A stretch of DNA of 64,000 bases. It comes from Henricia sp. BOLD:AAB3569. Its lineage: Eukaryota > Echinodermata > Asteroidea > Spinulosida > Echinasteridae. Shown here piece after piece: positions 5,605 through 64,000 of the stretch. The notes beneath the pieces are model-generated. The model ran no database searches. It was not told the DNA's origin and was given only the letters and a program-made list of their open reading frames with translations. The stretch is from positions 124,001 through 188,000 of the forward strand of contig JBBELK010000433.1 of NCBI GenBank assembly GCA_037783545.1, read 5' to 3'. Position 1 is the first letter of the stretch. Each line of letters starts with the position of its first letter. Both the position numbers and the translations under genes were made by a program.

Positions 5605-5657
5605 CCTACAGTATCAGTAAGTCACAGTCCATTGTTCTGTTCATCTTTACTGCAAAT

Positions 5658-6682: not shown

Positions 6683-6775
6683 GTGACAAAGACGTGTGTG
6701 CCAAGCGATGTCGACCAGGAGCTGTTTTGGCAGACCTCACTGCATCGTCTTCAGAGTGGCCAAGATTGACCCACG
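6683..6775 (+). other. Candidate internal exon
   Basis: A 93-nt block bounded by TTGTGACAG and GTGAGC. One frame is fully open (GDKDVCAKRCRPGAVLADL...). A second (VTKTCVPSDVDQELFWQTSL...) is open to a TGA at about 6767 and would join in phase to the CGYCSYAPP frame of the block at 5532-5616. No single frame runs through all proposed exons, so coding status is unresolved. Confidence 0.25.
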
Positions 6776-6804
6776 GTGAGCCCCAATATACTGGCATTTT
6801 CCAC

Positions 6805-7217
6805 GTTAAGGGGGGAATTTTGGCAACATATACCATATTTTCCAGAAAATACCTTTGTCTGGTCTCAAAATAAAAGAAATAAGTTTCAGTTGTTCTGAAG
6901 AGATAACTTGGGCCCAAAAAGGGTTACAAATAGTGTGACAACATGCCTTTCTAAAAACCCTGTATACCAATCTCCAATATACACTCGTAACTGGGACGGC
7001 CTAAAATGTAACACAAGTGTCCGTCCCGGTTACGAGCGTATATTGGAAATTTGATCACAGGGTTTTTAGAAAGGCATGTTGTCACACTATTTGTAACCCT
7101 TTTTGGGCCTAAGTTATCTCTTCAGAACAACTGAAACTTATTTCTTTTATTTTGAGACCAGACAAAGGTATTTTCTCGAAAATATGGTCTGTATTGCCAA
7201 AATGCCCCCTTTAATGT
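6805..7217. repeat. Fold-back element B (about 195-bp arms, 21-bp loop)
   Basis: The arm 6805-6999 is complementary to 7021-7217. The outer ends read CGTTAAGGGGGGAATTTTGG and its diverged complement. The loop holds ACAAGTGTCCGTCCC, the counterpart of AGTGTCTGTCC in fold-back A, and both right arms share CCTTTTTGGGC..AAGTTATCTC..AGAACAA in the same order. Confidence 0.85.
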
Positions 7218-7485
7218 ATGAAGTATCTCCAGTTTTCGAAAAATTACCGTTGGGCCTTCAGGAGTTGCAGTTTACATGCATGCAACTTTTCCTCATCTGC
7301 ACCATCGAAAATTTAAAAAAAACACTGTACAAAGTCGGAGATTTGTTTGTATTTCCCTTGTAACAGTTGCATGTCTGAGTTTACAGCATAGAAAAACATC
7401 TGATTCAACAAATATGGAAATGTTGCATTTGTGCCATCTGTAGATTTACTATACTGTTTACAAACTTTTTACTTTTCCCCCGCAG

Positions 7486-22766: not shown

Positions 22767-23001
22767 TTTAATTGGGTTGAGGTTTATCCTGACAAAATCT
22801 TTCGGGGCGCTTATAAAATAAACTCGAGGATATTCTTTACAGATTAGAAGAAAACAATTGTGCAATTTTTCCTTTTTACGATGGTACAAAATCATTTGAA
22901 AAGCGCAGCATCTATGCCTAACTTTTCATCTAGCTTTCGATCATTTCCGGAAGCCGTGAAAATAGCAGCCCGAAATTCGTGCTAGGTTCCGGCTGGTGAA
23001 A

Positions 23002-23330
23002 TATCGCACATATATTTTTAACATTGCATACATATGAAAAAACATTGCACATATATTTTTAACATCGCATACATATGGAAAAACATTGCATATATATGTC
23101 AAATTATTGCACATATATTTTTAACATCGCATATATACATATGAAAAAACATTGCATATATATGTCAAATTATTGCACATATATTTTCAACATCGCATAC
23201 ATAGGCCCTATCAAACATCGCACATATATGTCAAACATCGCACATATATGTCAAACATTGCACATATATGTCAAACATCGCATATATATGTCAAATATCG
23301 CACATATATTTGTGCATTATCGAATATTGC
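23002..23330 (+). repeat. 20-bp minisatellite
   Basis: AAACATCGCACATATATGTC and variants repeat from 23002 to about 23330. The 23210-23300 segment has a clean 20-bp period; the earlier part alternates ACATATATTTTTAACATCGC with longer units. The 190-codon frame through it is periodic and is judged a by-product. Confidence 0.85.
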
Positions 23331-33548: not shown

Positions 33549-36498
33549 GAGCAGTCAGGAAGCCCCAACCCAGTTTTCCCTAAACTTTGAAATTTCTCTG
33601 CCATTTCCCGGCGAAAGTCTGTCAATTTTTTAGGACAAGTGCGCAATATAGAGAGTTTGGAGCATGCAAAATTTGAAGTTCGTCGGAAAATTTTTCGACC
33701 TCCAAATTTGCCGACGTTTGGACCACACTTTGACCAAATTGCCGAGCCAAACTGGGGTGCGTCAACGACAGTCCGAAGGACTGAGCATGCGCACGACTCA
33801 GGAGTACACCAAAGAGGTGTGTACAGACAGCCACGGTTTGCGTGAGCAGTCAGGAAGCCCCAACCCAGTTTTCCCTAAACTTTGAAATTTCTCTGCAATT
33901 TCCCTGCGAAAGTCTGTGAATTTTTTAGGACAAGTGCGCAATATAGAGAGTTTGGAGCATGCAAAATTTGAAGTTCGTCGGAACATTTTTCGACCTCCAA
34001 ATTTGCCGACGTTTGGACCACACTTTGACCAAATTGCCGAGCCAAACTGGGGTGCGTCAACGACAGTCCGAAGGACTGAGCATGCGCACGACTCAGGAGT
34101 ACACCAAAGAGGTGTGTACAGACAGCCACGGTTTGCGTGAGCAGTCAGGAAGCCCCAACCCAGTTTTCCCTAAACTTTGAAATTTCTCTGCAATTTCCCG
34201 GCGAAAGTCTGTGAATTTTTTAGGACAAGTGCGCAATACAGAGAGTTTGGAGCATGCAAAATTTGAAGTTCGTCGGAACATTTTTCGACCTCCAAATTTG
34301 CCGACGTTTGGACCACACTTTGACCAAATTGCCGAGCCAAACTGGGGTGCGTCAACGACAGTCCGAAGGACTGAGCATGCGCACGACTCAGGAGTACACC
34401 AAAGAGGTGTGTACAGACAGCCACGGTTTGCGTGAGCAGTCAGGAAGCCCCAACCCAGTTTTCCCTAAACTTTGAAATTTCTCTGCCATTTCCCGGCGAA
34501 AGTCTGTGAATTTTTTAGGACAAGTGCGCAATATAGAGAGTTTGGAGCATGCAAAATTTAAAGTTCGTTGGAAATTTTTTCGACCTCCAAATTTGCCGAC
34601 GTTTGGACCACACTTTGACCAAATTGCCGAGCCAAACTGGGGTGCGTCAACGACAGTCCGACGGACTAAGCATGCGCACGACTCAGGAGTACACCAAAGA
34701 GGTGTGTACAGACAGCCACGGTTTGCGTGAGCAGTCAGGAAGCCCCAACGCAGTTTTCCCTAAACTTTGAAATTTCTCTGCCATTTCCCGGCGAAAGTCT
34801 GTGAATTTTTTAGGACAAGTGCGCAATATAGAGAGTTTGGAGCATGCAAAATTTGAAGTTCGTCGGAAAATTTTTCGACCTCCAAATTTGCTGACGTTTG
34901 GACCACACTTTGACCAAATTGCCGAGCCAAACTGGGGTGCGTCAACGACAGTCCGAAGGACTGAGCATGCGCACGACTCAGGAGTACACCAAAGAGGTGT
35001 GTACAGACAGCCACGGTTTGCGTGAGCAGTCAGGAAGCCCGAACCCAGTTTTCCCTAAACTTTGAAATTTCTCTGCCATTTCCCGGCGAAAGTCTGTCAA
35101 TTTGTTAGGACAAGTGCGCAATATAGAGAGTTTGGAGCATGCAAAATTTGAAGTTCGTCGGAACATTTTTCGACCTCCAAATTTGCCGACGTTTGGACCA
35201 CACTTTGACCAAATTGCCGAGCCAAACTGGGGTGCGTCAACGACAGTCCGAAGGACTGAGCATGCGCACGACTCAGGAGTACACCAAAGAGGTGTGTACA
35301 GACAGCCACGGTTTGCGTGAGCAGTCAGGAAGCCCCAACCAAGTTTTCCCTAAACTTTGAAATTTCTCTGCAATTTCCCGGCGAAAGTCTGTGAATTTTT
35401 TAGGACAAGTGCGCAATATAGAGAGTTTGGAGCATGCAAAATTTGAAGTTCGTCGGAACATTTTTCGACCTCCAAATTTGCCGACGTTTGGACCACACTT
35501 TGACCAAATTGCCGAGCCAAACTGGGGTGCGTCAACGACAGTCCGAAGGACTGAGCATGCGCACGACTCAGGAGTACACCAAAGAGGTGTGTACAGACAG
35601 CCACGGTTTGCGTGAGCAGTCAGGAAGCCCGAACCCAGTTTTCCCTAAACTTTGAAATTTCTCTGCCATTTCCCGGCGAAAGTCTGTCAATTTTTTAGGA
35701 CAAGTGCGCAATATAGAGAGTTTGGAGCATGCAAAATTTGAAGTTCGTCGGAACATTTTTCGACCTCCAAATTTGCCGACGTTTGGACCACACTTTGACC
35801 AAATTGCCGAGCCAAACTGGGGTGCGTCAACGACAGTCCGAAGGACTGAGCATGCGCACGACTCAGGAGTACACCAAAGAGGTGTGTACAGACAGCCACG
35901 GTTTGCGTGAGCAGTCAGGAAGCCCCAACCCAGTTTTCCCTAAACTTTGAAATTTCTCTGCAATTTCCCGGCGAAAGTCTGTCAATTTTTTAGGACAAGT
36001 GCGCAATATAGAGAGTTTGGAGCATGCAAATTTTGAAGTTCGTCGGAACATTTTTCGACCTCCAAATTTGACAACGTTTGGACCACACTTTGACCAAATT
36101 GCCGAGCCAAACTGGGGTGCGTCAACGACAGTCCGAAGGACTGAGCATGCGCACGACTCAGGAGTACACCAAAGAGGTGTGTACAGACAGCCACGGTTTG
36201 CGTGAGCAGTCAGGAAGCCCGAACCCAGTTTTCCCTAAACTTTGAAATTTCTCTGCCATTTCCCGGCGAAAGTCTGTCATTTTTTTAGGACAAGTGCGCA
36301 ATATAGAGAGTCTGGAGCATGCAAAATTTGAAGTTCGTCGGAACATTTTTCGACCTCCAAATTTGCCGACGTTTGGACCACACTTTGACCAAATTGCCGA
36401 GCCAAACTGGGGTGCGTCAACGACAGTCCAAAGGACTGAGCATGCGGACGACTCAGGAGTACACCAAAGAGGTGTGTACAGACAGCCACGGTTTGCGT

Positions 36499-39400
36499 GA
36501 GCAGTCAGGAAGCCCCAACCCAGTTTTCCCTAAACTTTGAAATTTCTCTGCAATTTCCCGGCGAAAGTCTGTCAATTTTTTAGGACAAGTGCGCAATATA
36601 GAGAGTTTGGAGCATGCAAAATTTGAAGTTCGTCGGAACATTTTTCGACCTCCAAATTTGCCGACGTTTGGACCACACTTTGACCAAATTGCCGAGCCAA
36701 ACTGGGGTGCGTCAACGACAGTCCGAAGGACTGAGCATGCGCACGACTCAGGAGTACACCAAAGAGGTGTGTACAGACAGCCACGGTTTGCGTGAGCAGT
36801 CAGGAAGCCCCAACCCAGTTTTCCCTAAACTTTGAAATTTCTCTGCCATTTCCCTGCGAAAGTCTGTCAATTGTTTAGGACAAGTGCGCAATATAGAGAG
36901 TTTGGAGCATGCAAAATTTGAAGTTCGTCGGAACATTTTTCGACCTCCAAATTTGCCGACGTTTGGACCACACTTTGACCAAATTGCCGAGCCAAACTGG
37001 GGTGCGTCAACGACAGTCCGAAGGACTGAGCATGCGGACGACTCAGGAGTACACCAAAGAGGTGTGTACAGACAGCCACGGTTTGCGTGAGCAGTCAGGA
37101 AGCCCCAACCCAGTTTTCCCTAAACTTTGAAATTTCTCTGCAATTTCCCGGCGAAAGTCTGTCAATTTTTTAGGACAAGTGCGCAATATAGAGAGTTTGG
37201 AGCATGCAAAATTTGAAGTTAGTCGGAACATTTTTCGACCTCCAAATTTGCCGACGTTTGGACCACACTTTGACCAAATTGCCGAGCCAAACTGGGGTGC
37301 GTCAACGACAGTCCGAAGGACTGAGCATGCGCACGACTCAGGAGTACACCAAAGAGGTGTGTACAGACAGCCACGGTTTGCGTGAGCAGTCAGGAAGCCC
37401 CAACCCAGTTTTCCCTAAACTTTGAAATTTCTCTGCCATTTCCCTGCGAAAGTCTGTCAATTGTTTAGGACAAGTGCGCAATATAGAGAGTTTGGAGCAT
37501 GCAAAATTTGAAGTTCGTCGGAACATTTTTCGACCTCCAAATTTGCCGACGTTTGGACCACACTTTGACCAAATTGCCGAGCCAAACTGGGGTGCGTCAA
37601 CGACAGTCCGAAGGACTGAGCATGCGCACGACTCAGGAGTACACCAAAGAGGTGTGTACAGACAGCCACGGTTTGCGTGAGCAGTCAGGAAGCCCCAACC
37701 CAGTTTTCCCTAAACTTTGAAATTTCTCTGCAATTTCCCGGCGAAAGTCTGTGATTTTTTTAGGACAAGTGCGCAATATAGAGAGTTTGGAGCATGCAAA
37801 ATTTGAAGTTCGTCGGAACATTTTTCGACCTCCAAATTTGCCGACGTTTGGACCACACTTTGACCAAATTGCCGAGCCAAACTGGGGTGCGTCAACGACA
37901 GTCCGAAGGACTGAGCATGCGCACGACTCAGGAGTACACCAAAGAGGTGTGTACAGACAGCCACGGTTTGCGGGAGCAGTCAGGAAGCCCCAACCCAGTT
38001 TTCCCTAAACTTTGAAATTTCTCTGCCATTTCCCGGCGAAAGTCTGTCAATTTTTTAGGACAAGTGCGGAGCATTCAAAATTTGAAGTTCGTCGGAACAT
38101 TTTTCGACCTCCAAATTTGCCGACGTTTGGACCACACTTTGACCAAATTGCCGAGCCAAACTGGGGTGCGTCAACGACAGTCCGAAGGACTGAGCATGCG
38201 CACGACTCAGGAGTACACCAAAGAGGTGTGTACAGACAGCCACGGTTTGCGTGAGCAGTCAGGAAGCCCCAACCCAGTTTTCCCTAAACTTTGAAATTTC
38301 TCTGCCATTTCCCGGCGAAAGTCTGTCAATTTTTTAGGACAAGTGCGCAATATAGAGAGTTTGGAGCATGCACAATTTGAAGTTCGTCGGAACATTTTTC
38401 GACCTCCAAATTTGCCGACGTTTGGACCACACTTTGACCAAATTGCCGAGCCAAACTGGGGTGCGTCAACGACAGTCCGAAGGACTGAGCATGCGCACGA
38501 CTCAGGAGTACACCAAAGAGGTGTGTACAGACAGCCACGGTTTGCGTGAGCAGTCAGGAAGCCCGAACCCAGTTTTCCCTAAACTTTGAAATTTCTCTGC
38601 CATTTCCCGGCGAAAGTCTGTAAATTTTTTAGGACAAGTGCGCAATATAGAGAGTCTGGAGCATGCAAAATTTGAAGTGCGTCGGAACATTTTTCGACCT
38701 CCAAATTTGCCGACGTTTGGACCACACTTTGACCAAATTGCCGAGCCAAACTGGGGTGCGTCAACGACAGTCTGAAGGACTGAGCATGCGCACGACTCAG
38801 GAGTACACCAAAGAGGTGTGTACAGACAGCCACGGTTTGCGTGAGCAGTCAGGAAGCCCCAACCCAGTTTTCCCTAAACTTTGAAATTTCTCTGCCATTT
38901 CCCTGCGAAAGTCTGTCAATTGTTTAGGACAAGTGCGCAATATAGAGAGTTTGGAGCATGCAAAATTTGAAGTTCGTCGGAACATTTTTCGACCTCCAAA
39001 TTTGCCGACGTTTGGACCACACTTTGACCAAATTGCCGAGCCAAACTGGGGTGCGTCAACGACAGTCCGAAGGACTGAGCATGCGCACGACTCAGGAGTA
39101 CACCAAAGAGGTGTGTACAGACAGCCACGGTTTGCGTGAGCAGTCAGGAAGCCCCAACCCAGTTTTCCCTAAACTTTGAAATTTCTCTGCCATTTCCCGG
39201 CGAAAGTCTGTCAATTTTTTAGGACAAGTGCGCAATATAGAGAGTTTGGAGCATGCACAATTTGAAGTTCGTCGGAACATTTTTCGACCTCCAAATTTGC
39301 CGAAGTTTGGACCACACTTTGACCAAATTGCCGAGCCAAACTGGGGTGCGTCAACGACAGTCCGAAGGACTGAGCATGCGCACGACTCAGGAGTACACCA

Positions 39401-42400
39401 AAGAGGTGTGTACAGACAGCCACGGTTTGCGTGAGCAGTCAGGAAGCCCGAACCCAGTTTTCCCTAAACTTTGATATTTCTCTGCCATTTCCCGGCGAAA
39501 GTCTGTCAATTTTTTAGGACAAGTGCGCAATATAGAGAGTCTGGAGCATGCAAAATTTGAAGTTCGTCGGAACATTTTTCGACCTCCAAATTTGCCGACG
39601 TTTGGACCACACTTTGACCAAATTGCCGAGCCAAACTGGGGTGCGTCAACGACAGTCCGAAGGACTGAGCATGCGCACGACTCAGGAGTACACCAAAGAG
39701 GTGTGTACAGACAGCCACGGTTTGCGTGAGCAGTCAGGAAGCCCCAACCCAGTTTTCCCTAAACTTTGAAATTTCTCTGCAATTTCCCGGCGAAAGTCTG
39801 TCAATTTTTTAGGACAAGTGCGCAATATAGAGAGTTTGGAGCATGCAAAATTTGAAGTTCGTCGGAACATTTTTCGACCTCCAAATTTGCCGACGTTTGG
39901 ACCACACTTTGACCAAATTGCCGAGCCAAACTGGGGTGCGTCAACGACAGTCCGAAGGACTGAGCATGCGCACGACTCAGGAGTACACCAAAGAGGTGTG
40001 TACAGACAGCCACGGTTTGCGTGAGCAGTCAGGAAGCCCCAACCCAGTTTTCCCTAAACTTTGAAATTTCTCTGCCATTTCCCTGCGAAAGTCTGTCAAT
40101 TGTTTAGGACAAGTGCGCAATATAGAGAGTTTGGAGCATGCAAAATTTGAAGTTCGTCGGAACATTTTTCGACCTCCAAATTTGCCGACGTTTGGACCAC
40201 ACTTTGACCAAATTGCCGAGCCAAACTGGGGTGCGTCAACGACAGTCCGAAGGACTGAGCATGCGGACGACTCAGGAGTACACCAAAGAGGTGTGTACAG
40301 ACAGCCACGGTTTGCGTGAGCAGTCAGGAAGCCCCAACCCAGTTTTCCCTAAACTTTGAAATTTCTCTGCAATTTCCCGGCGAAAGTCTGTCAATTTTTT
40401 AGGACAAGTGCGCAATATAGAGAGTTTGGAGCATGCAAAATTTGAAGTTAGTCGGAACATTTTTCGACCTCCAAATTTGCCGACGTTTGGACCACACTTT
40501 GACCAAATTGCCGAGCCAAACTGGGGTGCGTCAACGACAGTCCGAAGGACTGAGCATGCGCACGACTCAGGAGTACACCAAAGAGGTGTGTACAGACAGC
40601 CACGGTTTGCGTGAGCAGTCAGGAAGCCCCAACCCAGTTTTCCCTAAACTTTGAAATTTCTCTGCCATTTCCCTGCGAAAGTCTGTCAATTGTTTAGGAC
40701 AAGTGCGCAATATAGAGAGTTTGGAGCATGCAAGATTTGAAGTTCGTCGGAACATTTTTCGACCTCCAAATTTGCCGACGTTTGGACCACACTTTGACCA
40801 AATTGCCGAGCCAAACTGGGGTGCGTCAACGACAGTCCGAAGGACTGAGCATGCGCACGACTCAGGAGTACACCAAAGAGGTGTGTACAGACAGCCACGG
40901 TTTGCGTGAGCAGTCAGGAAGCCCCAACCCAGTTTTCCCTAAACTTTGAAATTTCTCTGCAATTTCCCGGCGAAAGTCTGTGATTTTTTTAGGACAAGTG
41001 CGCAATATAGAGAGTTTGGAGCATGCAAAATTTGAAGTTCGTCGGAACATTTTTCGACCTCCAAATTTGCCGACGTTTGGACCACACTTTGACCAAATTG
41101 CCGAGCCAAACTGGGGTGCGTCAACGACAGTCCGAAGGACTGAGCATGCGCACGACTCAGGAGTACACCAAAGAGGTGTGTACAGACAGCCACGGTTTGC
41201 GGGAGCAGTCAGGAAGCCCCAACCCAGTTTTCCCTAAACTTTGAAATTTCTCTGCCATTTCCCGGCGAAAGTCTGTCAATTTTTTAGGACAAGTGCGGAG
41301 CATTCAAAATTTGAAGTTCGTCGGAACATTTTTCGACCTCCAAATTTGCCGACGTTTGGACCACACTTTGACCAAATTGCCGAGCCAAACTGGGGTGCGT
41401 CAACGACAGTCCGAAGGACTGAGCATGCGCACGACTCAGGAGTACACCAAAGAGGTGTGTACAGACAGCCACGGTTTGCGTGAGCAGTCAGGAAGCCCCA
41501 ACCCAGTTTTCCCTGAACTTTGAAATTTCTCTGCAATTTCCCGGCGAAAGTCTGTCAATTTTTTAGGACAAGTGCGCAATATAGAGAGTTTGGAGCATGC
41601 ACAATTTGAAGTTCGTCGGAACATTTTTCGACCTCCAAATTTGCCGACGTTTGGACCACACTTTGACCAAATTGCCGAGCCAAACTGGGGTGCGTCAACG
41701 ACAGTCCGAAGGACTGAGCATGCGCACGACTCAGGAGTACACCAAAGAGGTGTGTACAGACAGCCACGGTTTGCGTGAGCAGTCAGGAAGCCCGAACCCA
41801 GTTTTCCCTAAACTTTGAAATTTCTCTGCCATTTCCCGGCGAAAGTCTGTAAATTTTTTAGGACAAGTGCGCAATATAGAGAGTCTGGAGCATGCAAAAT
41901 TTGAAGTGCGTCGGAACATTTTTCGACCTCCAAATTTGCCGACGTTTGGACCACACTTTGACCAAATTGCCGAGCCAAACTGGGGTGCGTCAACGACAGT
42001 CCGAAGGACTGAGCATGCGCACGACTCAGGAGTACACCAAAGAGGTGTGTACAGACAGCCACGGTTTGCGTGAGCAGTCAGGAAGCCCCAACCCAGTTTT
42101 CCCTAAACTTTGAAATTTCTCTGCCATTTCCCTGCGAAAGTCTGTCAATTGTTTAGGACAAGTGCGCAATATAGAGAGTTTGGAGCATGCAAAATTTGAA
42201 GTTCGTCGGAACATTTTTCGACCTCCAAATTTGCCGACGTTTGGACCACACTTTGACCAAATTGCCGAGCCAAACTGGGGTGCGTCAACGACAGTCCGAA
42301 GGACTGAGCATGCGCACGACTCAGGAGTACACCAAAGAGGTGTGTACAGACAGCCACGGTTTGCGTGAGCAGTCAGGAAGCCCCAACCCAGTTTTCCCTA

Positions 42401-42956
42401 AACTTTGAAATTTCTCTGCCATTTCCCGGCGAAAGTCTGTCAATTTTTTAGGACAAGTGCGCAATATAGAGAGTTTGGAGCATGCACAATTTGAAGTTCG
42501 TCGGAACATTTTTCGACCTCCAAATTTGCCGAAGTTTGGACCACACTTTGACCAAATTGCCGAGCCAAACTGGGGTGCGTCAACGACAGTCCGAAGGACT
42601 GAGCATGCGCACGACTCAGGAGTACACCAAAGAGGTGTGTACAGACAGCCACGGTTTGCGTGAGCAGTCAGGAAGCCCGAACCCAGTTTTCCCTAAACTT
42701 TGATATTTCTCTGCCATTTCCCGGCGAAAGTCTGTCAATTTTTTAGGACAAGTGCGCAATATAGAGAGTCTGGAGCATGCAAAATTTGAAGTTCGTCGGA
42801 ACATTTTTCGACCTCCAAATTTGCCGACGTTTGGACCACACTTTGACCAAATTGCCGAGCCAAACTGGGGTGCGTCAACGACAGTCCGAAGGACTGAGCA
42901 TGCGCACGACTCAGGAGTACACCAAAGAGGTGTGTACAGACAGCCACGGTTTGCGT
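36499..42956 (+). repeat. Higher-order repeat: two copies of an 11-monomer, 3229-bp unit
   Basis: The unit 36499-39727 is repeated at 39728-42956. Private variants recur 3229 bp apart: GCGGACGACTC (37033/40262), AAGTTAGTCGG (37218/40447), the 16-bp-deleted monomer (38069/41298), GCACAATTTG (38372/41601), GAAGTGCGTCGG (38674/41903) and GCCGAAGTTTGG (39299/42528). Only a handful of differences between units were seen by eye. Confidence 0.9.
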
Positions 42957-48900: not shown

Positions 48901-51900
48901 ATTTCTCTGCCATTTCCCGGCGAAAGTCTGTCAATTTTTTAGGACAAGTGCGCAATATAGAGAGTCTGGAGCATGCAAAATTTGAAGTTCGTCGGAACAT
49001 TTTTCGACCTCCAAATTTGCCGACGTTTGGACCACACTTTGACCAAATTGCCGAGCCAAACTGGGGTGCGTCAACGACAGTCCGAAGGACTGAGCATGCG
49101 CACGACTCAGGAGTACACCAAAGAGGTGTGTACAGACAGCCACGGTTTGCGTGAGCAGTCAGGAAGCCCCAACCCAGTTTTCCCTAAACTTTGAAATTTC
49201 TCTGCCATTTCCCTGCGAAAGTCTGTCAATTGTTTAGGACAAGTGCGCAATATAGAGAGTTTGGAGCATGCAAAATTTGAAGTTCGTCGGAACATTTTTC
49301 GACCTCCAAATTTGCCGACGTTTGGACCACACTTTGACCAAATTGCCGAGCCAAACTGGGGTGCGTCAACGACAGTCCGAAGGACTGAGCATGCGCACGA
49401 CACAGGAGTACACCAAAGAGGTGTGTACAGACAGCCACGGTTTGCGTGAGCAGTCAGGAAGCTCCAACCCAGTTTTCCATAAACTTTGAAATTTCTCTGC
49501 CATTTCCCGGCGAAAGTCTGTCAATTTTTTAGGACAAGTGCGCAATATAAAGAGTTTGGAGCATGCACAATTTGAAGTTCGTCGGAACATTTTTCGACCT
49601 CCAAATTTTCCGACGTTTGGACCACACTTTGACCAAATTGCCGAGCCAAACTGGGGTGCGTCAACGACAGTCCGAAGGACTGAGCATGCGCACGACTCAG
49701 GAGTACACCAAAGAGGTGTGTACAGACAGCCACGGTTTGCGTGAGCAGTCAGGAAGCCCGAACCCAGTTTTCCCTAAACTTTGAAATTTCTCTGCCATTT
49801 CCCGGCGAAAGTCTGTCAATTTTTTAGGACAAGTGCGCAATATAGAGAGTCTGGAGCATGCAAAATTTGAAGTTCGTCGGAACATTTTTCGACCTCCAAA
49901 TTTGCCGACGTTTGGACCACACTTTGACCAAATTGCCGAGCCAAACTGGGGTGCGTCAACGACAGTCCGAAGGACTGAGCATGCGCACGACTCAGGAGTA
50001 CACCAAAGAGGTGTGTACAGACAGCCACGGTTTGCGTGAGCAGTCAGGAAGCCCCAACCCAGTTTTCCCTAAACTTTGAAATTTCTCTGCAATTTCCCGG
50101 CGAAAGTCTGTCAATTTTTTAGGACAAGTGCGCAATATAGAGAGTTTGGAGCATGCAAAATTTGAAGTTCGTCGGAACATTTTTCGACCTCCAAATTTGC
50201 CGACGTTTGGACCACACTTTGACCAAATTGCCGAGCCAAACTGGGGTGCGTCAACGACAGTCCGAAGGACTGAGCATGCGCACGACTCAGGAGTACACCA
50301 AAGAGGTGTGTACAGACAGCCACGGTTTGCGTGAGCAGTCAGGAAGCCCGAACCCAGTTTTCCCTAAACTTTGAAATTTCTCTGCCATTTCCCGGCGAAA
50401 GTCTGTCAATTTTTTAGGACAAGTGCGCAATATAGAGAGTCTGGAGCATGCAAAATTTGAAGTTCGTCGGAACATTTTTCGACCTCCAAATTTGCCGACG
50501 TTTGGACCACACTTTGACCAAATTGCCGAGCCAAACTGGGGTGCGTCAACGACAGTCCGAAGGACTGAGCATGCGCACGACTCAGGAGTACACCAAAGAG
50601 GTGTGTACAGACAGCCACGGTTTGCGTGAGCAGTCAGGAAGCCCCAACCCAGTTTTCCCTAAACTTTGAAATTTCTCTGCAATTTCCCGGCGAAAGTCTG
50701 TGATTTGTTTAGGACAAGTGCGCAATATAGAGAGTTTGGAGCATGCAAAATTTGAAGTTCGTCGGAACATTTTTCGACCTCCAAATTTCCCGACGTTTGG
50801 ACCACACTTTGACCAAATTGCCGAGCCAAACTGGGGTGCGTCAACGACAGTCCGAAGGACTGAGCATGCGCACGACTCAGGAGTACACCAAAGAGGTGTG
50901 TACAGACAGCCACGGTTTGCGGGAGCAGTCAGGAAGCCCCAACCCAGTTTTCCCTAAACTTTGAAATTTCTCTGCCATTTCCCGGCGAAAGTCTGTCAAT
51001 TTTTTAGGACAAGTGCGCAATATAGAGAGTTTGGAGCATGCACAATTTGAAGTTCGTCGGAACATTTTTCGACCTCCAAATTTGCCGACGTTTGGACCAC
51101 ACTTTGACCAAATTGCCGAGCCAAACTGGGGTGCGTCAACGACAGTCCGAAGGACTGAGCATGCGCACGACTCAGGAGTACACCAAAGAGGTGTGTACAG
51201 ACAGCCACGGTTTGCGTGAGCAGTCAGGAAGCCCGAACCCAGTTTTCCCTAAACTTTGAAATTTCTCTGCCATTTCCCGGCGAAAGTCTGTCAATTTTTT
51301 AGGACAAGTGCGCAATATAGAGAGTCTGGAGCATGCAAAATTTGAAGTTCGTCGGAACATTTTTCGACCTCCAAATTTGCCGACGTTTGGACCACACTTT
51401 GACCAAATTGCCGAGCCAAACTGGGGTGCGTCAACGACAGTCCGAAGGACTGAGCATGCGCACGACTCAGGAGTACACCAAAGAGGTGTGTACAGACAGC
51501 CACGGTTTGCGTGAGCAGTCAGGAAGCCCGAACCCAGTTTTCCCTAAACTTTGAAATTTCTCTGCCATTTCCCGGCGAAAGTCTGTCAATTTTTTAGGAC
51601 AAGTGCGCAATATAGAGAGTCTGGAGCATGCAAAATTTGAAGTTCGTCGGAACATTTTTCGACCTCCAAATTTGCCGACGTTTGGACCACACTTTGACCA
51701 AATTGCCGAGCCAAACTGGGGTGCGTCAACGACAGTCCGAAGGACTGAGCATGCGCACGACTCAGGAGTACACCAAAGAGGTGTGTACAGACAGCCACGG
51801 TTTGCGTGAGCAGTCAGGAAGCCCGAACCCAGTTTTCCCTAAACTTTGAAATTTCTCTGCCATTTCCTGGCGAAAGTCTGTCAATTTTTTAGGACAAGTG

Positions 51901-54900
51901 CGCAATATAGAGAGTCTGGAGCATGCAAAATTTGAAGTTCGTCGGAACATTTTTCGACCTCCAAATTTGCCGACGTTTGGACCACACTTTGACCAAATTG
52001 CCGAGCCAAACTGGGGTGCGTCAACGACAGTCCGAAGGACTGAGCATGCGCACGACTCAGGAGTACACCAAAGAGGTGTGTACAGACAGCCACGGTTTGC
52101 GTGAGCAGTCAGGAAGCCCGAACCCAGTTTTCCCTAAACTTTGAAATTTCTCTGCCATTTCCTGGCGAAAGTCTGTCAATTTTTTAGGACAAGTGCGCAA
52201 TATAGAGAGTCTGGAGCATGCAAAATTTGAAGTTCGTCGGAACATTTTTCGACCTCCAAATTTGCCGACGTTTGGACCACACTTTGACCAAATTGCCGAG
52301 CCAAACTGGGGTGCGTCAACGACAGTCCGAAGGACTGAGCATGCGCACGACTCAGGAGTACACCAAAGAGGTGTGTACAGACAGCCACGGTTTGCGTGAG
52401 CAGTCAGGAAGCCCGAACCCAGTTTTCCCTAAACTTTGAAATTTCTCTGCCATTTCCCGGCGAAAGTCTGTCAATTTTTTAGGACAAGTGCGCAATATAG
52501 AGAGTCTGGAGCATGCAAAATTTGAAGTTCGTCGGAAAATTTTTCGACCTCCAAATTTGCCGACGTTTGGACCACACTTTGACCAAATTGCCGAGCCAAA
52601 CTGGGGTGCGTCAACGACAGTCCGAAGGACTGAGCATGCGCACGACTCAGGAGTACACCAAAGAGGTGTGTACAGACAGCCACGGTTTGCGTGAGCAGTC
52701 AGGAAGCCCGAACCCAGTTTTCCCTAAACTTTGAAATTTCTCTGCCATTTCCTGGCGAAAGTCTGTCAATTTTTTAGGACAAGTGCGCAATATAGAGAGT
52801 CTGGAGCATGCAAAATTTGAAGTTCGTCGGAACATTTTTCGACCTCCAAATTTGCCGACGTTTGGACCACACTTTGACCAAATTGCCGAGCCAAACTGGG
52901 GTGCGTCAACGACAGTCCGAAGGACTGAGCATGCGCACGACTCAGGAGTACACCAAAGAGGTGTGTACAGACAGCCACGGTTTGCGTGAGCAGTCAGGAA
53001 GCCCGAACCCAGTTTTCCCTAAACTTTGAAATTTCTCTGCCATTTCCTGGCGAAAGTCTGTCAATTTTTTTAGGACAAGTGCGCAATATAGAGAGTCTGG
53101 AGCATGCAAAATTTGAAGTTCGTCGGAACATTTTTCGACCTCCAAATTTGCCGACGTTTGGACCACACTTTGACCAAATTGCCGAGCCAAACTGGGGTGC
53201 GTCAACGACAGTCCGAAGGACTGAGCATGCGCACGACTCAGGAGTACACCAAAGAGGTGTGTACAGACAGCCACGGTTTGCGTGAGCAGTCAGGAAGCCC
53301 GAACCCAGTTTTCCCTAAACTTTGAAATTTCTCTGCCATTTCCCGGCGAAAGTCTGTCAATTTTTTAGGACAAGTGCGCAATATAGAGAGTCTGGAGCAT
53401 GCAAAATTTGAAGTTCGTCGGAACATTTTTCGACCTCCAAATTTGCCGACGTTTGGACCACACTTTGACCAAATTGCCGAGCCAAACTGGGGTGCGTCAA
53501 CGACAGTCCGAAGGACTGAGCATGCGCACGACTCAGGAGTACACCAAAGAGGTGTGTACAGACAGCCACGGTTTGCGTGAGCAGTCAGGAAGCCCGAACC
53601 CAGTTTTCCCTAAACTTTGAAATTTCTCTGCCATTTCCCGGCGAAAGTCTGTCAATTTTTTAGGACAAGTGCGCAATATAGAGAGTCTGGAGCATGCAAA
53701 ATTTGAAGTTCGTCGGAACATTTTTCGACCTCCAAATTTGCCGACGTTTGGACCACACTTTGACCAAATTGCCGAGCCAAACTGGGGTGCGTCAACGACA
53801 GTCCGAAGGACTGAGCATGCGCACGACTCAGGAGTACACCAAAGAGGTGTGTACAGACAGCCACGGTTTGCGTGAGCAGTCAGGAAGCCCGAACCCAGTT
53901 TTCCCTAAACTTTGAAATTTCTCTGCCATTTCCCGGCGAAAGTCTGTCAATTTTTTAGGACAAGTGCGCAATATAGAGAGTCTGGAGCATGCAAAATTTG
54001 AAGTTCGTCGGAACATTTTTCGACCTCCAAATTTGCCGACGTTTGGACCACACTTTGACCAAATTGCCGAGCCAAACTGGGGTGCGTCAACGACAGTCCG
54101 AAGGACTGAGCATGCGCACGACTCAGGAGTACACCAAAGAGGTGTGTACAGACAGCCACGGTTTGCGTGAGCAGTCAGGAAGCCCGAACCCAGTTTTCCC
54201 TAAACTTTGAAATTTCTCTGCCATTTCCTGGCGAAAGTCTGTCAATTTTTTAGGACAAGTGCGCAATATAGAGAGTCTGGAGCATGCAAAATTTGAAGTT
54301 CGTCGGAACATTTTTCGACCTCCAAATTTGCCGACGTTTGGACCACACTTTGACCAAATTGCCGAGCCAAACTGGGGTGCGTCAACGACAGTCCGAAGGA
54401 CTGAGCATGCGCACGACTCAGGAGTACACCAAAGAGGTGTGTACAGACAGCCACGGTTTGCGTGAGCAGTCAGGAAGCCCGAACCCAGTTTTCCCTAAAC
54501 TTTGAAATTTCTCTGCCATTTCCCGGCGAAAGTCTGTCAATTTTTTAGGACAAGTGCGCAATATAGAGAGTCTGGAGCATGCAAAATTTGAAGTTCGTCC
54601 GAACATTTTTCGACCTCCAAATTTGCCGACGTTTGGACCACACTTTGACCAAATTGCCGAGCCAAACTGGGGTGCGTCAACGACAGTCCGAAGGACTGAG
54701 CATGCGCACGACTCAGGAGTACACCAAAGAGGTGTGTACAGACAGCCACGGTTTGCGTGAGCAGTCAGGAAGCCCGAACCCAGTTTTCCCTAAACTTTGA
54801 AATTTCTCTGCCATTTCCCGGCGAAAGTCTGTCAATTTTTTAGGACAAGTGCGCAATATAGAGAGTCTGGAGCATGCAAAATTTGAAGTTCGTCGGAACA

Positions 54901-55643
54901 TTTTTCGACCTCCAAATTTGCCGACGTTTGGACCACACTTTGACCAAATTGCCGAGCCAAACTGGGGTGCGTCAACGACAGTCCGAAGGACTGAGCATGC
55001 GCACGACTCAGGAGTACACCAAAGAGGTGTGTACAGACAGCCACGGTTTGCGTGAGCAGTCAGGAAGCCCGAACCCAGTTTTCCCTAAACTTTGAAATTT
55101 CTCTGCCATTTCCCGGCGAAAGTCTGTCAATTTTTTAGGACAAGTGCGCAATATAGAGAGTCTGGAGCATGCAAAATTTGAAGTTCGTCCGAACATTTTT
55201 CGACCTCCAAATTTGCCGACGTTTGGACCACACTTTGACCAAATTGCCGAGCCAAACTGGGGTGCGTCAACGACAGTCCGAAGGACTGAGCATGCGCACG
55301 ACTCAGGAGTACACCAAAGAGGTGTGTACAGACAGCCACGGTTTGCGTGAGCAGTCAGGAAGCCCGAACCCAGTTTTCCCTAAACTTTGAAATTTCTCTG
55401 CCATTTCCCGGCGAAAGTCTGTCAATTTTTTAGGACAAGTGCGCAATATAGAGAGTCTGGAGCATGCAAAATTTGAAGTTCGTCGGAACATTTTTCGACC
55501 TCCAAATTTGCCGACGTTTGGACCACACTTTGACCAAATTGCCGAGCCAAACTGGGGTGCGTCAACGACAGTCCGAAGGACTGAGCATGCGCACGACTCA
55601 GGAGTACACCAAAGAGGTGTGTACAGACAGCCACGGTTTGCGT

Positions 55644-58600
55644 GAGCAGTCAGGAAGCCCCAACCCAGTTTTTCCCTAAACTTTGAAATTTCTCTGCAAT
55701 TTCCCGGCGAAAGTCTGTGATTTGTTTAGGACAAGTGCGCAATATAGAGAGTTTGGAGCATGCAAAATTTGAAGTTCGTCGGAACATTTTTCGACCTCCA
55801 AATTTCCCGACGTTTGGACCACACTTTGACCAAATTGCCGAGCCAAACTGGGGTGCGTCAACGACAGTCCGAAGGACTGAGCATGCGCACGACTCAGGAG
55901 TACACCAAAGAGGTGTGTACAGACAGCCACGGTTTGCGGGAGCAGTCAGGAAGCCCGAACCCAGTTTTCCCTAAACTTTGAAATTTCTCTGCCATTTCCC
56001 GGCGAAAGTCTGTCAATTTTTTAGGACAAGTGCGCAATATAGAGAGTCTGGAGCATGCAAAATTTGAAGTTCGTCGGAACATTTTTCGACCTCCAAATTT
56101 GCCGACGTTTGGACCACACTTTGACCAAATTGCCGAGCCAAACTGGGGTGCGTCAACGACAGTCCGAAGGACTGAGCATGCGCACGACTCAGGAGTACAC
56201 CAAAGAGGTGTGTACAGACAGCCACTGTTTGCGTGAGCAGTCAGGAAGCCCGAACCCAGTTTTCCCTAAACTTTGAAATTTCTCTGCCATTTCCCGGCGA
56301 AAGTCTGTCAATTTTTTAGGACAAGTGCGCAATATAGAGAGTCTGGAGCATGCAAAATTTGAAGTTCGTCGGAACATTTTTCGACCTCCAAATTTGCCGA
56401 CGTTTGGACCACACTTTGACCAAATTGCCGAGCCAAACTGGGGTGCGTCAACGACAGTCCGAAGGACTGAGCATGCGCACGACTCAGGAGTACACCAAAG
56501 AGGTGTGTACAGACAGCCACGGTTTGCGTTAGCAGTCAGGAAGCCCGAACCCAGTTTTCCCTAAACTTTGAAATTTCTCTGCCATTTCCCGGCGAAAGTC
56601 TGTCAATTTTTTAGGACAAGTGCGCAATATAGAGAGTCTGGAGCATGCAAAATTTGAAGTTCGTCGGAACATTTTTCGACCTCCAAATTTGCCGACGTTT
56701 GGACCACACTTTGACCAAATTGCCGAGCCAAACTGGGGTGCGTCAACGACAGTCCGAAGGACTGAGCATGCGCACGACTCAGGAGTACACCAAAGAGGTG
56801 TGTACAGACAGCCACGGTTTGCGTGAGCAGTCAGGAAGCCCTAACCCAGTTTTCCCTAAACTTTGAAATTTCTCTGCCATTTCCCGGCGAAAGTCTGTCA
56901 ATTTTTTAGGACAAGTGCGCAATATAGAGAGTCTGGAGCATGCAAAATTTGAAGTTCGTCGGAACATTTTTCGACCTCCAAATTTGCCGACGTTTGGACC
57001 ACACTTTGACCAAATTGCCGAGCCAAACTGGGGTGCGTCAACGACAGTCCGAAGGACTGAGCATGCGCACGACTCAGGAGTACACCAAAGAGGTGTGTAC
57101 AGACAGCCACGGTTTGCGTGAGCAGTCAGGAAGCCCGAACCCAGTTTTCCCTAAACTTTGAAATTTCTCTGCCATTTCCTGGCGAAAGTCTGTCAATTTT
57201 TTAGGACAAGTGCGCAATATAGAGAGTCTGGAGCATGCAAAATTTGAAGTTCGTCGGAACATTTTTCGACCTCCAAATTTGCCGACGTTTGGACCACACT
57301 TTGACCAAATTGCCGAGCCAAACTGGGGTGCGTCAACGACAGTCCGAAGGACTGAGCATGCGCACGACTCAGGAGTACACCAAAGAGGTGTGTACAGACA
57401 GCCACGGTTTGCGTGAGCAGTCAGGAAGCCCCAACCCAGTTTTTCCCTAAACTTTGAAATTTCTCTGCAATTTCCCGGCGAAAGTCTGTGATTTGTTTAG
57501 GACAAGTGCGCAATATAGAGAGTTTGGAGCATGCAAAATTTGAAGTTCGTCGGAACATTTTTCGACCTCCAAATTTCCCGACGTTTGGACCACACTTTGA
57601 CCAAATTGCCGAGCCAAACTGGGGTGCGTCAACGACAGTCCGAAGGACTGAGCATGCGCACGACTCAGGAGTACACCAAAGAGGTGTGTACAGACAGCCA
57701 CGGTTTGCGGGAGCAGTCAGGAAGCCCGAACCCAGTTTTCCCTAAACTTTGAAATTTCTCTGCCATTTCCCGGCGAAAGTCTGTCAATTTTTTAGGACAA
57801 GTGCGCAATATAGAGAGTCTGGAGCATGCAAAATTTGAAGTTCGTCGGAACATTTTTCGACCTCCAAATTTGCCGACGTTTGGACCACACTTTGACCAAA
57901 TTGCCGAGCCAAACTGGGGTGCGTCAACGACAGTCCGAAGGACTGAGCATGCGCACGACTCAGGAGTACACCAAAGAGGTGTGTACAGACAGCCACGGTT
58001 TGCGTGAGCAGTCAGGAAGCCCGAACCCAGTTTTCCCTAAACTTTGAAATTTCTCTGCCATTTCCCGGCGAAAGTCTGTCAATTTTTTAGGACAAGTGCG
58101 CAATATAGAGAGTCTGGAGCATGCAAAATTTGAAGTTCGTCGGAACATTTTTCGACCTCCAAATTTGCCGACGTTTGGACCACACTTTGACCAAATTGCC
58201 GAGCCAAACTGGGGTGCGTCAACGACAGTCCGAAGGACTGAGCATGCGCACGACTCAGGAGTACACCAAAGAGGTGTGTACAGACAGCCACGGTTTGCGT
58301 GAGCAGTCAGGAAGCCCCAACCCAGTTTTTCCCTAAACTTTGAAATTTCTCTGCAATTTCCCGGCGAAAGTCTGTGATTTGTTTAGGACAAGTGCGCAAT
58401 ATAGAGAGTTTGGAGCATGCAAAATTTGAAGTTCGTCGGAACATTTTTCGACCTCCAAATTTCCCGACGTTTGGACCACACTTTGACCAAATTGCCGAGC
58501 CAAACTGGGGTGCGTCAACGACAGTCCGAAGGACTGAGCATGCGCACGACTCAGGAGTACACCAAAGAGGTGTGTACAGACAGCCACGGTTTGCGGGAGC

Positions 58601-60957
58601 AGTCAGGAAGCCCGAACCCAGTTTTCCCTAAACTTTGAAATTTCTCTGCCATTTCCCGGCGAAAGTCTGTCAATTTTTTAGGACAAGTGCGCAATATAGA
58701 GAGTCTGGAGCATGCAAAATTTGAAGTTCGTCGGAACATTTTTCGACCTCCAAATTTGCCGACGTTTGGACCACACTTTGACCAAATTGCCGAGCCAAAC
58801 TGGGGTGCGTCAACGACAGTCCGAAGGACTGAGCATGCGCACGACTCAGGAGTACACCAAAGAGGTGTGTACAGACAGCCACTGTTTGCGTGAGCAGTCA
58901 GGAAGCCCGAACCCAGTTTTCCCTAAACTTTGAAATTTCTCTGCCATTTCCCGGCGAAAGTCTGTCAATTTTTTAGGACAAGTGCGCAATATAGAGAGTC
59001 TGGAGCATGCAAAATTTGAAGTTCGTCGGAACATTTTTCGACCTCCAAATTTGCCGACGTTTGGACCACACTTTGACCAAATTGCCGAGCCAAACTGGGG
59101 TGCGTCAACGACAGTCCGAAGGACTGAGCATGCGCACGACTCAGGAGTACACCAAAGAGGTGTGTACAGACAGCCACGGTTTGCGTTAGCAGTCAGGAAG
59201 CCCGAACCCAGTTTTCCCTAAACTTTGAAATTTCTCTGCCATTTCCCGGCGAAAGTCTGTCAATTTTTTAGGACAAGTGCGCAATATAGAGAGTCTGGAG
59301 CATGCAAAATTTGAAGTTCGTCGGAACATTTTTCGACCTCCAAATTTGCCGACGTTTGGACCACACTTTGACCAAATTGCCGAGCCAAACTGGGGTGCGT
59401 CAACGACAGTCCGAAGGACTGAGCATGCGCACGACTCAGGAGTACACCAAAGAGGTGTGTACAGACAGCCACGGTTTGCGTGAGCAGTCAGGAAGCCCTA
59501 ACCCAGTTTTCCCTAAACTTTGAAATTTCTCTGCCATTTCCCGGCGAAAGTCTGTCAATTTTTTAGGACAAGTGCGCAATATAGAGAGTCTGGAGCATGC
59601 AAAATTTGAAGTTCGTCGGAACATTTTTCGACCTCCAAATTTGCCGACGTTTGGACCACACTTTGACCAAATTGCCGAGCCAAACTGGGGTGCGTCAACG
59701 ACAGTCCGAAGGACTGAGCATGCGCACGACTCAGGAGTACACCAAAGAGGTGTGTACAGACAGCCACGGTTTGCGTGAGCAGTCAGGAAGCCCGAACCCA
59801 GTTTTCCCTAAACTTTGAAATTTCTCTGCCATTTCCTGGCGAAAGTCTGTCAATTTTTTAGGACAAGTGCGCAATATAGAGAGTCTGGAGCATGCAAAAT
59901 TTGAAGTTCGTCGGAACATTTTTCGACCTCCAAATTTGCCGACGTTTGGACCACACTTTGACCAAATTGCCGAGCCAAACTGGGGTGCGTCAACGACAGT
60001 CCGAAGGACTGAGCATGCGCACGACTCAGGAGTACACCAAAGAGGTGTGTACAGACAGCCACGGTTTGCGTGAGCAGTCAGGAAGCCCCAACCCAGTTTT
60101 TCCCTAAACTTTGAAATTTCTCTGCAATTTCCCGGCGAAAGTCTGTGATTTGTTTAGGACAAGTGCGCAATATAGAGAGTTTGGAGCATGCAAAATTTGA
60201 AGTTCGTCGGAACATTTTTCGACCTCCAAATTTCCCGACGTTTGGACCACACTTTGACCAAATTGCCGAGCCAAACTGGGGTGCGTCAACGACAGTCCGA
60301 AGGACTGAGCATGCGCACGACTCAGGAGTACACCAAAGAGGTGTGTACAGACAGCCACGGTTTGCGGGAGCAGTCAGGAAGCCCGAACCCAGTTTTCCCT
60401 AAACTTTGAAATTTCTCTGCCATTTCCCGGCGAAAGTCTGTCAATTTTTTAGGACAAGTGCGCAATATAGAGAGTCTGGAGCATGCAAAATTTGAAGTTC
60501 GTCGGAACATTTTTCGACCTCCAAATTTGCCGACGTTTGGACCACACTTTGACCAAATTGCCGAGCCAAACTGGGGTGCGTCAACGACAGTCCGAAGGAC
60601 TGAGCATGCGCACGACTCAGGAGTACACCAAAGAGGTGTGTACAGACAGCCACGGTTTGCGTGAGCAGTCAGGAAGCCCGAACCCAGTTTTCCCTAAACT
60701 TTGAAATTTCTCTGCCATTTCCCGGCGAAAGTCTGTCAATTTTTTAGGACAAGTGCGCAATATAGAGAGTCTGGAGCATGCAAAATTTGAAGTTCGTCGG
60801 AACATTTTTCGACCTCCAAATTTGCCGACGTTTGGACCACACTTTGACCAAATTGCCGAGCCAAACTAGGGTGCGTCAACGACAGTCCGAAGGACTGAGC
60901 ATGCGCACGACTCAGGAGTACACCAAAGAGGTGTGTACAGACAGCCACGGTTTGCGT
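55644..60957 (+). repeat. Higher-order repeat: two copies of a 9-monomer, 2657-bp unit
   Basis: The unit 55644-58300 is repeated at 58301-60957. Shared markers 2657 bp apart include CCCAGTTTTTCCC, AAATTTCCCGACG (55803/58460), CCACTGTTTGCG (56223/58880), TTGCGTTAGCAG (56524/59181) and AGCCCTAACCC (56838/59495). The last monomer of the second unit has acquired ACTAGGGTGC and GTTAGCAG, so identity ends near 60868. Confidence 0.88.
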
Positions 60958-63022
60958 TAGCAGTCAGGAAGCCCGAACCCAGTTTTCCCTAAACTTTGAA
61001 ATTTCTCTGCCATTTCCCGGCGAAAGTCTGTCAATTTTTTAGGACAAGTGCGCAATATAGAGAGTCTGGAGCATGCAAAATTTGAAGTTCGTCGGAACAT
61101 TTTTCGACCTCCAAATTTGCCGACGTTTGGACCACACTTTGACCAAATTGCCGAGCCAAACTGGGGTGCGTCAACGACAGTCCGAAGGACTGAGCATGCG
61201 CACGACTCAGGAGTACACCAAAGAGGTGTGTACAGACAGCCACGGTTTGCGTGAGCAGTCAGGAAGCCCGAACCCAGTTTTCCCTAAACTTTGAAATTTC
61301 TCTGCCATTTCCCGGCGAAAGTCTGTCAATTTTTTAGGACAAGTGCGCAATATAGAGAGTCTGGAGCATGCAAAATTTGAAGTTCGTCGGAACATTTTTC
61401 GACCTCCAAATTTGCCGACGTTTGGACCACACTTTGACCAAATTGCCGAGCCAAACTGGGGTGCGTCAACGACAGTCCGAAGGACTGAGCATGCGCACGA
61501 CTCAGGAGTACACCAAAGAGGTGTGTACAGACAGCCACGGTTTGCGTGAGCAGTCAGGAAGCCCGAACCCAGTTTTCCCTAAACTTTGAAATTTCTCTGC
61601 AATTTCCCGGCGAAAGTCTGTGATTTGTTTAGGACAAGTGCGCAATATAGAGAGTTTAGAGCATGAAAAATTTGAAGTTCGTCGGAACATTTTTCGACCT
61701 CCAAATTTCCCGACGTTTGGACCACACTTTGACCAAATTGCCGAGCCAAACTGGGGTGCGTCAACGACAGTCCGAAGGACTGAGCATGCGCACGACTCAG
61801 GAGTACACCAAAGAGGTGTGTACAGACAGCCACGGTTTGCGTTAGCAGTCAGGAAGCCCGAACCCAGTTTTCCCTAAACTTTGAAATTTCTCTGCCATTT
61901 CCCGGCGAAAGTCTGTCAATTTTTTAGGACAAGTGCGCAATATAGAGAGTCTGGAGCATGCAAAATTTGAAGTTCGTCGGAACATTTTTCGACCTCCAAA
62001 TTTGCCGACGTTTGGACCACACTTTGACCAAATTGCCGAGCCAAACTAGGGTGCGTCAACGACAGTCCGAAGGACTGAGCATGCGCACGACTCAGGAGTA
62101 CACCAAAGAGGTGTGTACAGACAGCCACGGTTTGCGTTAGCAGTCAGGAAGCCCGAACCCAGTTTTCCCTAAACTTTGAAATTTCTCTTCCATTTCCCGG
62201 CGAAAGTCTGTCAATTTTTTAGGACAAGTGCGCAATATAGAGAGTCTGGAGCATGCAAAATTTGAAGTTCGTCGGAACATTTTTCGACCTCCAAATTTGC
62301 CGACGTTTGGACCACACTTTGACCAAATTGCCGAGCCAAACTGGGGTGCGTCAACGACAGTCCGAAGGACTGAGCATGCGCACGACTCAGGAGTACACCA
62401 AAGAGGTGTGTACAGACAGCCACGGTTTGCGTGAGCAGTCAGGAAGCCCGAACCCAGTTTTCCCTAAACTTTGAAATTTCTCTGCCATTTCCCGGCGAAA
62501 GTCTGTCAATTTTTTAGGACAAGTGCGCAATATAGAGAGTCTGGAGCATGCAAAATTTGAAGTTCGTCGGAACATTTTTCGACCTCCAAATTTGCCGACG
62601 TTTGGACCACACTTTGACCAAATTGCCGAGCCAAACTGGGGTGCGTCAACGACAGTCCGAAGGACTGAGCATGCGCACGACTCAGGAGTACACCAAAGAG
62701 GTGTGTACAGACAGCCACGGTTTGCGTGAGCAGTCAGGAAGCCCGAACCCAGTTTTCCCTAAACTTTGAAATTTCTCTGCAATTTCCCGGCGAAAGTCTG
62801 TGATTTGTTTAGGACAAGTGCGCAATATAGAGAGTTTAGAGCATGACAAATTTGAAGTTCGTCGGAACATTTTTCGACCTCCAAATTTCCCGACGTTTGG
62901 ACCACACTTTGACCAAATTGCCGAGCCAAACTGGGGTGCGTCAACGACAGTCCGAAGGACTGAGCATGCGCACGACTCAGGAGTACACCAAAGAGGTGTG
63001 TACAGACAGCCACGGTTTGCGT
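60663..63022 (+). repeat. Higher-order repeat: two copies of a 4-monomer, 1180-bp unit
   Basis: ACTAGGGTGCGTC (60866/62046), GTTAGCAGTC (60956/62136) and GTTTAGAGCATGA followed by A or C (about 61656/62836) recur 1180 bp apart. A third GTTAGCAG at 63316 hints at the start of another round. Confidence 0.82.
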
Positions 63023-64000
63023 GAGCAGTCAGGAAGCCCGAACCCAGTTTTCCCTAAACTTTGAAATTTCTCTGCCATTTCCCGGCGAAAGTCTGTCAAT
63101 TTTTTAGGACAAGTGCGCAATATAGAGAGTCTGGAGCATGCAAAATTTGAAGTTCGTCGGAACATTTTTCGACCTCCAAATTTGCCGACGTTTGGACCAC
63201 ACTTTGACCAAATTGCCGAGCCAAACTGGGGTGCGTCAACGACAGTCCGAAGGACTGAGCATGCGCACGACTCAGGAGTACACCAAAGAGGTGTGTACAG
63301 ACAGCCACGGTTTGCGTTAGCAGTCAGGAAGCCCGAACCCAGTTTTCCCTAAACTTTGAAATTTCTCTGCCATTTCCCGGCGAAAGTCTGTCAATTTTTT
63401 AGGACAAGTGCGCAATATAGAGAGTCTGGAGCATGCAAAATTTGAAGTTCGTCGGAACATTTTTCGACCTCCAAATTTGCCGACGTTTGGACCACACTTT
63501 GACCAAATTGCCGAGCCAAACTGGGGTGCGTCAACGACAGTCCGAAGGACTGAGCATGCGCACGACTCAGGAGTACACCAAAGAGGTGTGTACAGACAGC
63601 CACGGTTTGCGTGAGCAGTCAGGAAGCCCGAACCCAGTTTTCCCTAAACTTTGAAATTTCTCTGCCATTTCCCGGCGAAAGTCTGTCAATTTTTTAGGAC
63701 AAGTGCGCAATATAGAGAGTCTGGAGCATGCAAAATTTGAAGTTCGTCGGAACATTTTTCGACCTCCAAATTTGCCGACGTTTGGACCACACTTTGACCA
63801 AATTGCCGAGCCAAACTGGGGTGCGTCAACGACAGTCCGAAGGACTGAGCATGCGCACGACTCAGGAGTACACCAAAGAGGTGTGTACAGACAGCCACGG
63901 TTTGCGTGAGCAGTCAGGAAGCCCGAACCCAGTTTTCCCTAAACTTTGAAATTTCTCTGCCATTTCCTGGCGAAAGTCTGTCAATGTTTTAGGACAAGTG

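Follow-up and report, generated by a model that had tools for sequence, protein, structure and literature searches.

The DNA analysed here, which we refer to as the window, is a stretch of 64,000 nucleotides from the sea star Henricia sp., corresponding to bases 124001-188000 of contig C433 in an assembly of 740,731,340 bases and 2104 contigs. From position 33548 to 64000 of the window the forward strand consists of a satellite array with a 295-bp unit, comprising 103 complete units and a partial one, which was delineated using TRF, an anchor scan and BLAST. TRF reported a single array over precisely this interval, with a period of 295, 103.3 copies and 98% matches, whereas the anchor scan placed 104 unit starts from 33549 onwards, spaced at 295 bp (95 times), 296 bp (6 times) or 279 bp (twice), and BLAST put all 104 of them on the plus strand. 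In the phase used throughout, units begin with GAGCAGTC and the first of them occupies 33549-33843, immediately to the right of a sharp border at 33548/33549. The array extends past 64000 up to the end of the contig (198313), and since it fills C433 to its last base the contig evidently breaks within the array, whose right end must lie beyond it. The 103 complete units represent 50 distinct sequences, with a mean pairwise difference of 1.45% and a maximum of 4.7% (substitutions, gaps ignored), and none of them, nor any other part of the array portion in the window, carries an insertion. These results bear out a prior sequence-only reading of the window, which had described a homogeneous array of about 103 monomers in one orientation with a sharp left border. 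Its further remark that transposon insertions are lacking holds within the window but not elsewhere, where about 1,000 junctions with the tail of a LINE or SINE lie at a fixed point of the unit. This point, between unit positions 195 and 196 (33743/33744 in the first unit, plus strand), is empty here, and the 19-bp target site is intact in 102 of the 103 window units.

To the left of the array the window contains repeats of other kinds. Two long near-perfect palindromes of fold-back or MITE-like appearance lie at 149-655 and 6803-7217, with self-complementarity of about 91% and 90% respectively; 14.3 tandem copies of a 78-bp unit occupy 2471-3620; a remnant of another LINE is found on the reverse strand at 15674-18218, within which 16646-17146 matches RVT_1 at 1.4e-11; and 22999-23311 is taken up by AT-rich tandem repeats with a unit of about 20 bp. 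The reverse strand of the 78-bp unit seems to resemble the 5' half of a tRNA (motif GCTCAGCTGGTAGAGC), and ARAGORN calls no tRNA at this place. Elsewhere in the assembly, the mitochondrial genome was recovered as C2104 (16,221 bases). Judged by eye, its COX1 looks conserved under the echinoderm code, which assigns ATA to Ile and AAA to Asn, and the two reverse-strand frames ahead of COX1 are presumably ND2 and ND1, in the sea-star order; both features suggest a sea star. Another contig, C955, contains COX1 three times at a spacing of 16,221 bp, and hence looks like a head-to-tail mitochondrial concatemer that is probably a product of assembly.

Homogenisation and block duplication of the array

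Two duplications of multi-unit blocks stand out within the array, both on the plus strand. A block of 11 units at 36499-39727 is followed by an adjacent copy at 39728-42956 (36499-42956 in all), with 4 differences over the 11 units, and a block of 9 units at 55349-58005 is followed by an exact adjacent copy at 58006-60662 (55349-60662 in all), with 9 of 9 units identical. By comparison, the best blocks in 100 arrays with shuffled unit order showed 9 differences over 9 units and 16 differences over 11 units. The 279-bp unit length is seen twice because the 11-unit duplication carried along a unit with a 16-bp deletion (37974-38252), of which the anchor scan recovered the second example, with the same deletion, at 41203-41481. 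Beyond these blocks no lag repeats regularly, and no regular multi-unit period was found along the window array. Hence, we interpret the two duplications as recent block duplications rather than as a higher-order repeat, and the term "nested higher-order repeats" used in the sequence-only reading is an overstatement. Among the higher-order duplications of 11, 9 and 4 monomers that it had proposed, the 11- and 9-unit blocks are recovered, whereas a 4-unit period does not stand out. Of the shorter repeats that it had listed, a 2-mer at 54579/55169 (unit starts 54464/55054 in our phase) and a 3-mer at 46318/47203 (unit starts 46203/47088) are pairs at lags 2 and 3, respectively, each exact over 2 units only, and a 9-mer-like spacing at 45728/48383 (unit starts 45613/48268) does not resolve into a clean block, the differences of its units being 1, 2, 1, 1, 4, 1, 3, 4 and 8.

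The suggestion of the same reading that the array might be homogenised by unequal exchange agrees with the observation that closer units are more alike, the difference between units rising with their distance (Mantel r 0.197, with 0 of 2000 permutations as large). Further, the mean number of differences from the array consensus is 4.5 in the first 15 units as against 2.5 in the remainder. Units 61-103 (51218-63907, plus strand) form a more uniform, younger zone with a mean difference of 1.02%, falling to 0.38% once the 6 recurrent variant units among the 43 are set aside, compared with 1.53% for units 1-60, the boundary between units 60 and 61 (51218) having been picked by eye. The best explanation of these patterns is that the array is kept homogeneous through unequal exchange and block amplification, with uniformity greater away from its edge.

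Abundance of the satellite and the centromere question

A search of the 740.7-Mb assembly with a 28-base core of the unit, allowing up to 3 mismatches, recovered 313,714 copies (160,913 forward and 152,801 reverse), compared with 0 for the reversed control. At 295 bp for each core this amounts to about 92.5 Mb or 12.5% of the assembly, an estimate that is based on a single 28-base core and to which the 240-bp units of contig C1650, devoid of much of the core region, are additional. In the array of that contig (L021-L023) these deletion units are mixed with 295-bp units. Across 631 complete units from 8 contigs the consensuses of the individual arrays are 0 to 13 sites away from that of the window, and the mean unit difference within a contig ranges from 1.1% to 4.6%. 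These observations support the view, also voiced in the sequence-only reading, that the satellite is a genome-wide, recently homogenised repeat, and it does not occur only at this locus. It might be argued that the array is a local minisatellite or an artefact of assembly, given that contig C433 ends within it and that long arrays tend to collapse or be mis-joined; however, with matches on at least 12 contigs and both orientations common genome-wide, this is refuted for the repeat family and can be regarded as extremely improbable.

The satellite is presumably heterochromatic and probably centromeric or pericentromeric in location. A CENP-B-like box of the form TTCGNNNNANNCGGG (up to 1 mismatch) was not found in the array, and its 3 matches in the window all lie to the left of the array, as against 10.2 expected by chance over the whole window. 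Such a box is present in some centromeric satellites and is not required in all. The 295-bp satellite is comparable to alpha satellite in being a genome-wide tandem unit with homogeneous arrays and local block amplification (PMC4053949), but differs from it in that the window array shows neither a CENP-B-like box nor a regular higher-order repeat. As high abundance is usually a sign of the centromere repeat, according to PMC4053949, a centromeric role of the 295-bp satellite is plausible by analogy, and we treat it as a candidate. The alternative that it is a heterochromatic or subtelomeric filler without centromere function falls a little short of an even chance in our estimation: the two differences from alpha satellite just noted would both agree with it, as would the occurrence of several satellite blocks per large contig (e.g. 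C278 and C146, among the matches listed), whereas the 313,714 cores, in view of the usual link between abundance and the centromere (PMC4053949), argue against it. The species table of PMC10153287 includes a starfish, for which no unit length was found in the text consulted; nor did the open-access papers searched yield a description of a 295-bp sea-star satellite.

Other functions of the unit were considered and rejected. No Rfam family matches the window at gathering scores, which speaks against an RNA gene or structured RNA in the unit, and a single unit, when folded as DNA, fares no better than its shuffled versions (z -0.34). No ORF of 120 or more amino acids among those listed lies inside the array, and ARAGORN finds no tRNA genes. 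Taken by itself, the window array is a satellite of an ordinary kind, though a very abundant one, and a reasonable candidate for a centromere repeat.

A LINE and a SINE at one base of the satellite

Three interruptions were found in other arrays, all near unit position 195, one of them being a LINE and two a shorter element. The LINE is about 4.9 kb long (at L014, about 2512-7454) and antisense relative to the satellite. Its 5' end at L014 lies 17 bp ahead of the ATG of ORF1, which has a zinc knuckle (zf-CCHC), and ORF2, whose frame is interrupted in this copy, shows matches to an APE endonuclease (Exo_endo_phos in two pieces, 2.7e-05 and 3.6e-08) and a reverse transcriptase (RVT_1, 2.4e-34). 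The 3' end of the element, ...AATAAAACATTTTAGAAAAA, stands directly against the satellite. Among solved structures its reverse transcriptase is closest to that of human L1 ORF2p (4e-41; R2 3e-19), and on the basis of the domain matches and the nearest solved reverse transcriptase we tentatively label it as being of the L1/Tx1 kind. A second copy (L050) matches the first from end to end at 98.4%, with both junctions the same. A genome search with the reverse transcriptase gave 71 scored rows, at least 44 of them at 93-100% identity and at least 27 at 56-57%, the latter representing a second family; these counts are lower bounds, as 70 of 3286 candidates were scored. In at least 14 of the 44 near-identical matches the ORF2 frame spans at least 1090 amino acids and is stop-free within the match, a count that leaves out one element split over two rows. 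On contigs up to C287 the first family comprises 12 elements, of which 10 have the exact tail listed and all 10 of these adjoin satellite, the two without a listed tail being at C108:314537 and C48:11658. The second family is found genome-wide, e.g. on C1155 and C388, with frames of up to 1132 amino acids.

A SINE of 0.55-0.73 kb is found at the exact satellite point of the LINE. The two elements have a common 3' end, with a 92% match along a stretch of about 53 bp whose final few bases are satellite, and outside this tail they match at chance level only. With such a common tail attached to an unrelated body, the SINE would be mobilised by the LINE. SINE bodies show 0-8 differences among 16 of 17 copies, the remaining one (L016) being 11-16 differences from the others, and at least four types of 5' junction or deletion are seen. 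As regards a possible RNA polymerase III promoter taken from a small RNA gene, none of the three loci tested has an Rfam match, and about 34 bp of the SINE's 5' part matches a tRNA-like SINE in the C1650 array. That tRNA-like SINE, which is inserted three times in the array (L021), is about 90% like positions 717-803 of the window, a piece that is also partly like the SINE 5' region. At another locus (L051, C120:609000-612800) the SINE occurs in tandem, each copy running by its tail straight into the following one, with a spacing of 608-675 bp.

A search for the junction that tolerated 3 mismatches or fewer matched 1,086 places in comparison to 3 control matches. Of 19 junctions examined in detail, 17 belong to the SINE and 2 to the LINE, and in every one the satellite resumes at the same base. 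However, 16 of the 19 were chosen among the 100 places listed in this search, whose pattern itself included the junction (the other 3 had been found earlier), and hence the 3' agreement of those 16 is by construction. The 5' side, which was free to vary, is visible in 15 of the 16 and lies in these at reverse-unit position 97 or 102. Further, a 20-base tail searched without the target was recovered at 1,003 places, with 0 for the control, and among the 100 matches listed, as counted by hand, 87 tails lie against the satellite site or a sequence closely similar to it and 13 do not. The tail pattern admitted any base but T fourteen positions further along; the satellite site has such a base there, so that some non-satellite places may be missed. 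The 13 listed non-satellite tails are followed by tRNA-like sequence (6), SINE-like sequence (5) or neither (2, on C50 and C248, apparently at unrelated places); three loci account for 7 of them (five on C120, one each on C93 and C278), and at these the tail runs into the next tandem SINE copy or into part of a tRNA-like SINE. A near-copy of the target, GGCAAATTTGG, lies 31 bp on in the same unit and adjoins 0 of the 87 listed satellite tails. Pairs spaced 894-895 bp apart occur three times on C128, as expected from array copying, and since many of the SINEs are near-identical and some lie at repeated spacings, the junction counts are a mixture of insertion and array copying. The insertions lie at a single fixed base of a repeated target, and we read the element as a target-specific non-LTR retrotransposon with the satellite as its target.

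Origin of the insertions and their relation to known elements

Taken as a whole, it is probable that the window captures the left edge of an exchange-homogenised array of a very abundant satellite, about 12% of the assembly, which elsewhere serves a non-LTR retrotransposon and its short non-autonomous partner, the SINE, as their favoured site of insertion. In the mechanism that we propose, the ORF2 endonuclease would nick the satellite strand at unit position 195, immediately behind ...CCAAATTGCC, the satellite end thus released would prime reverse transcription of a LINE or SINE RNA ending in ...AATAAAACATTTTAGAAAAA, and later expansion of the array would passively multiply the inserts along with the units. 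An extreme version of the last step dispenses with targeting altogether, such that a single old insertion of each element, LINE and SINE, was propagated through expansion of the satellite. This could account for the near-identity of 16 of the 17 SINE bodies and for the recurrent pairs on C128, but it is unlikely, given that two unrelated elements share one 3' point, that at least four SINE 5' junction types occur in differing satellite backgrounds, and that LINE tails also adjoin satellite variants such as GGGAATTTGG and GGAAATTGG. We find it fairly likely that targeting and array turnover act together, in the sense that a LINE of the L1/Tx1 kind and a SINE have specialised on one base of a satellite constituting an eighth of the genome and owe their copy number to array turnover, with expansion multiplying the inserts. 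If this is true, the target being practically unlimited and non-coding, the copy number of the parasite would be set by array turnover and not by damage to the host.

R2 elements occupy one fixed site in 28S rRNA genes, where exchange within the tandem array both copies and removes the inserts. The sea-star LINE is similar to R2 in using a single fixed site in a tandem array, but the endonuclease is of a different type and its reverse transcriptase is far closer to L1 ORF2p than to R2 (4e-41 as against 3e-19). PMC4640811, in which R2 is mentioned, assigns most of the reported target-specific families to the early-branched, Tx1 and R1 groups, their targets including RNA genes and microsatellites, whilst PMC3747384 states that the Tx group inserts target-specifically and that the 3' end of a SINE often matches that of its LINE. 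As described in the two papers, elements of the Tx1 group of the L1 lineage likewise pair an APE endonuclease with an L1-like reverse transcriptase and enter a multicopy sequence at a single fixed base; in the present case, however, that sequence is a long satellite, apparently non-coding and accounting for about 12% of the assembly, and not an RNA gene or microsatellite. Residence of a LINE within a satellite is also recorded in PMC4640811 for YURE, a relative of Utopia/NeSL found occasionally in sea-squirt U2_sat, a satellite derived from U2. In contrast to that occasional use of a satellite with an RNA-gene origin, the tails listed here adjoin the satellite in 87 of 100 cases, and no RNA gene was recognised in the window. 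The agreement of the SINE 3' end with that of the LINE is shared with other LINE-SINE pairs with a common tail (PMC3747384), but both members of the present pair are found at a single satellite target site. In the open-access papers searched, a satellite-specific LINE/SINE pair of such kind was not found.

Most known target-specific LINEs are directed to RNA genes or microsatellites, targets that are small or that make an insertion costly. With a satellite as target, hundreds of thousands of sites are available, and the system thus offers a natural test of the safe-harbour idea. It is equally a natural test of short-site recognition by an endonuclease, in view of the near-copy 31 bp away that is used in none of the 87 listed cases, and it bears on the share of new copies that arises from satellite expansion as opposed to transposition.
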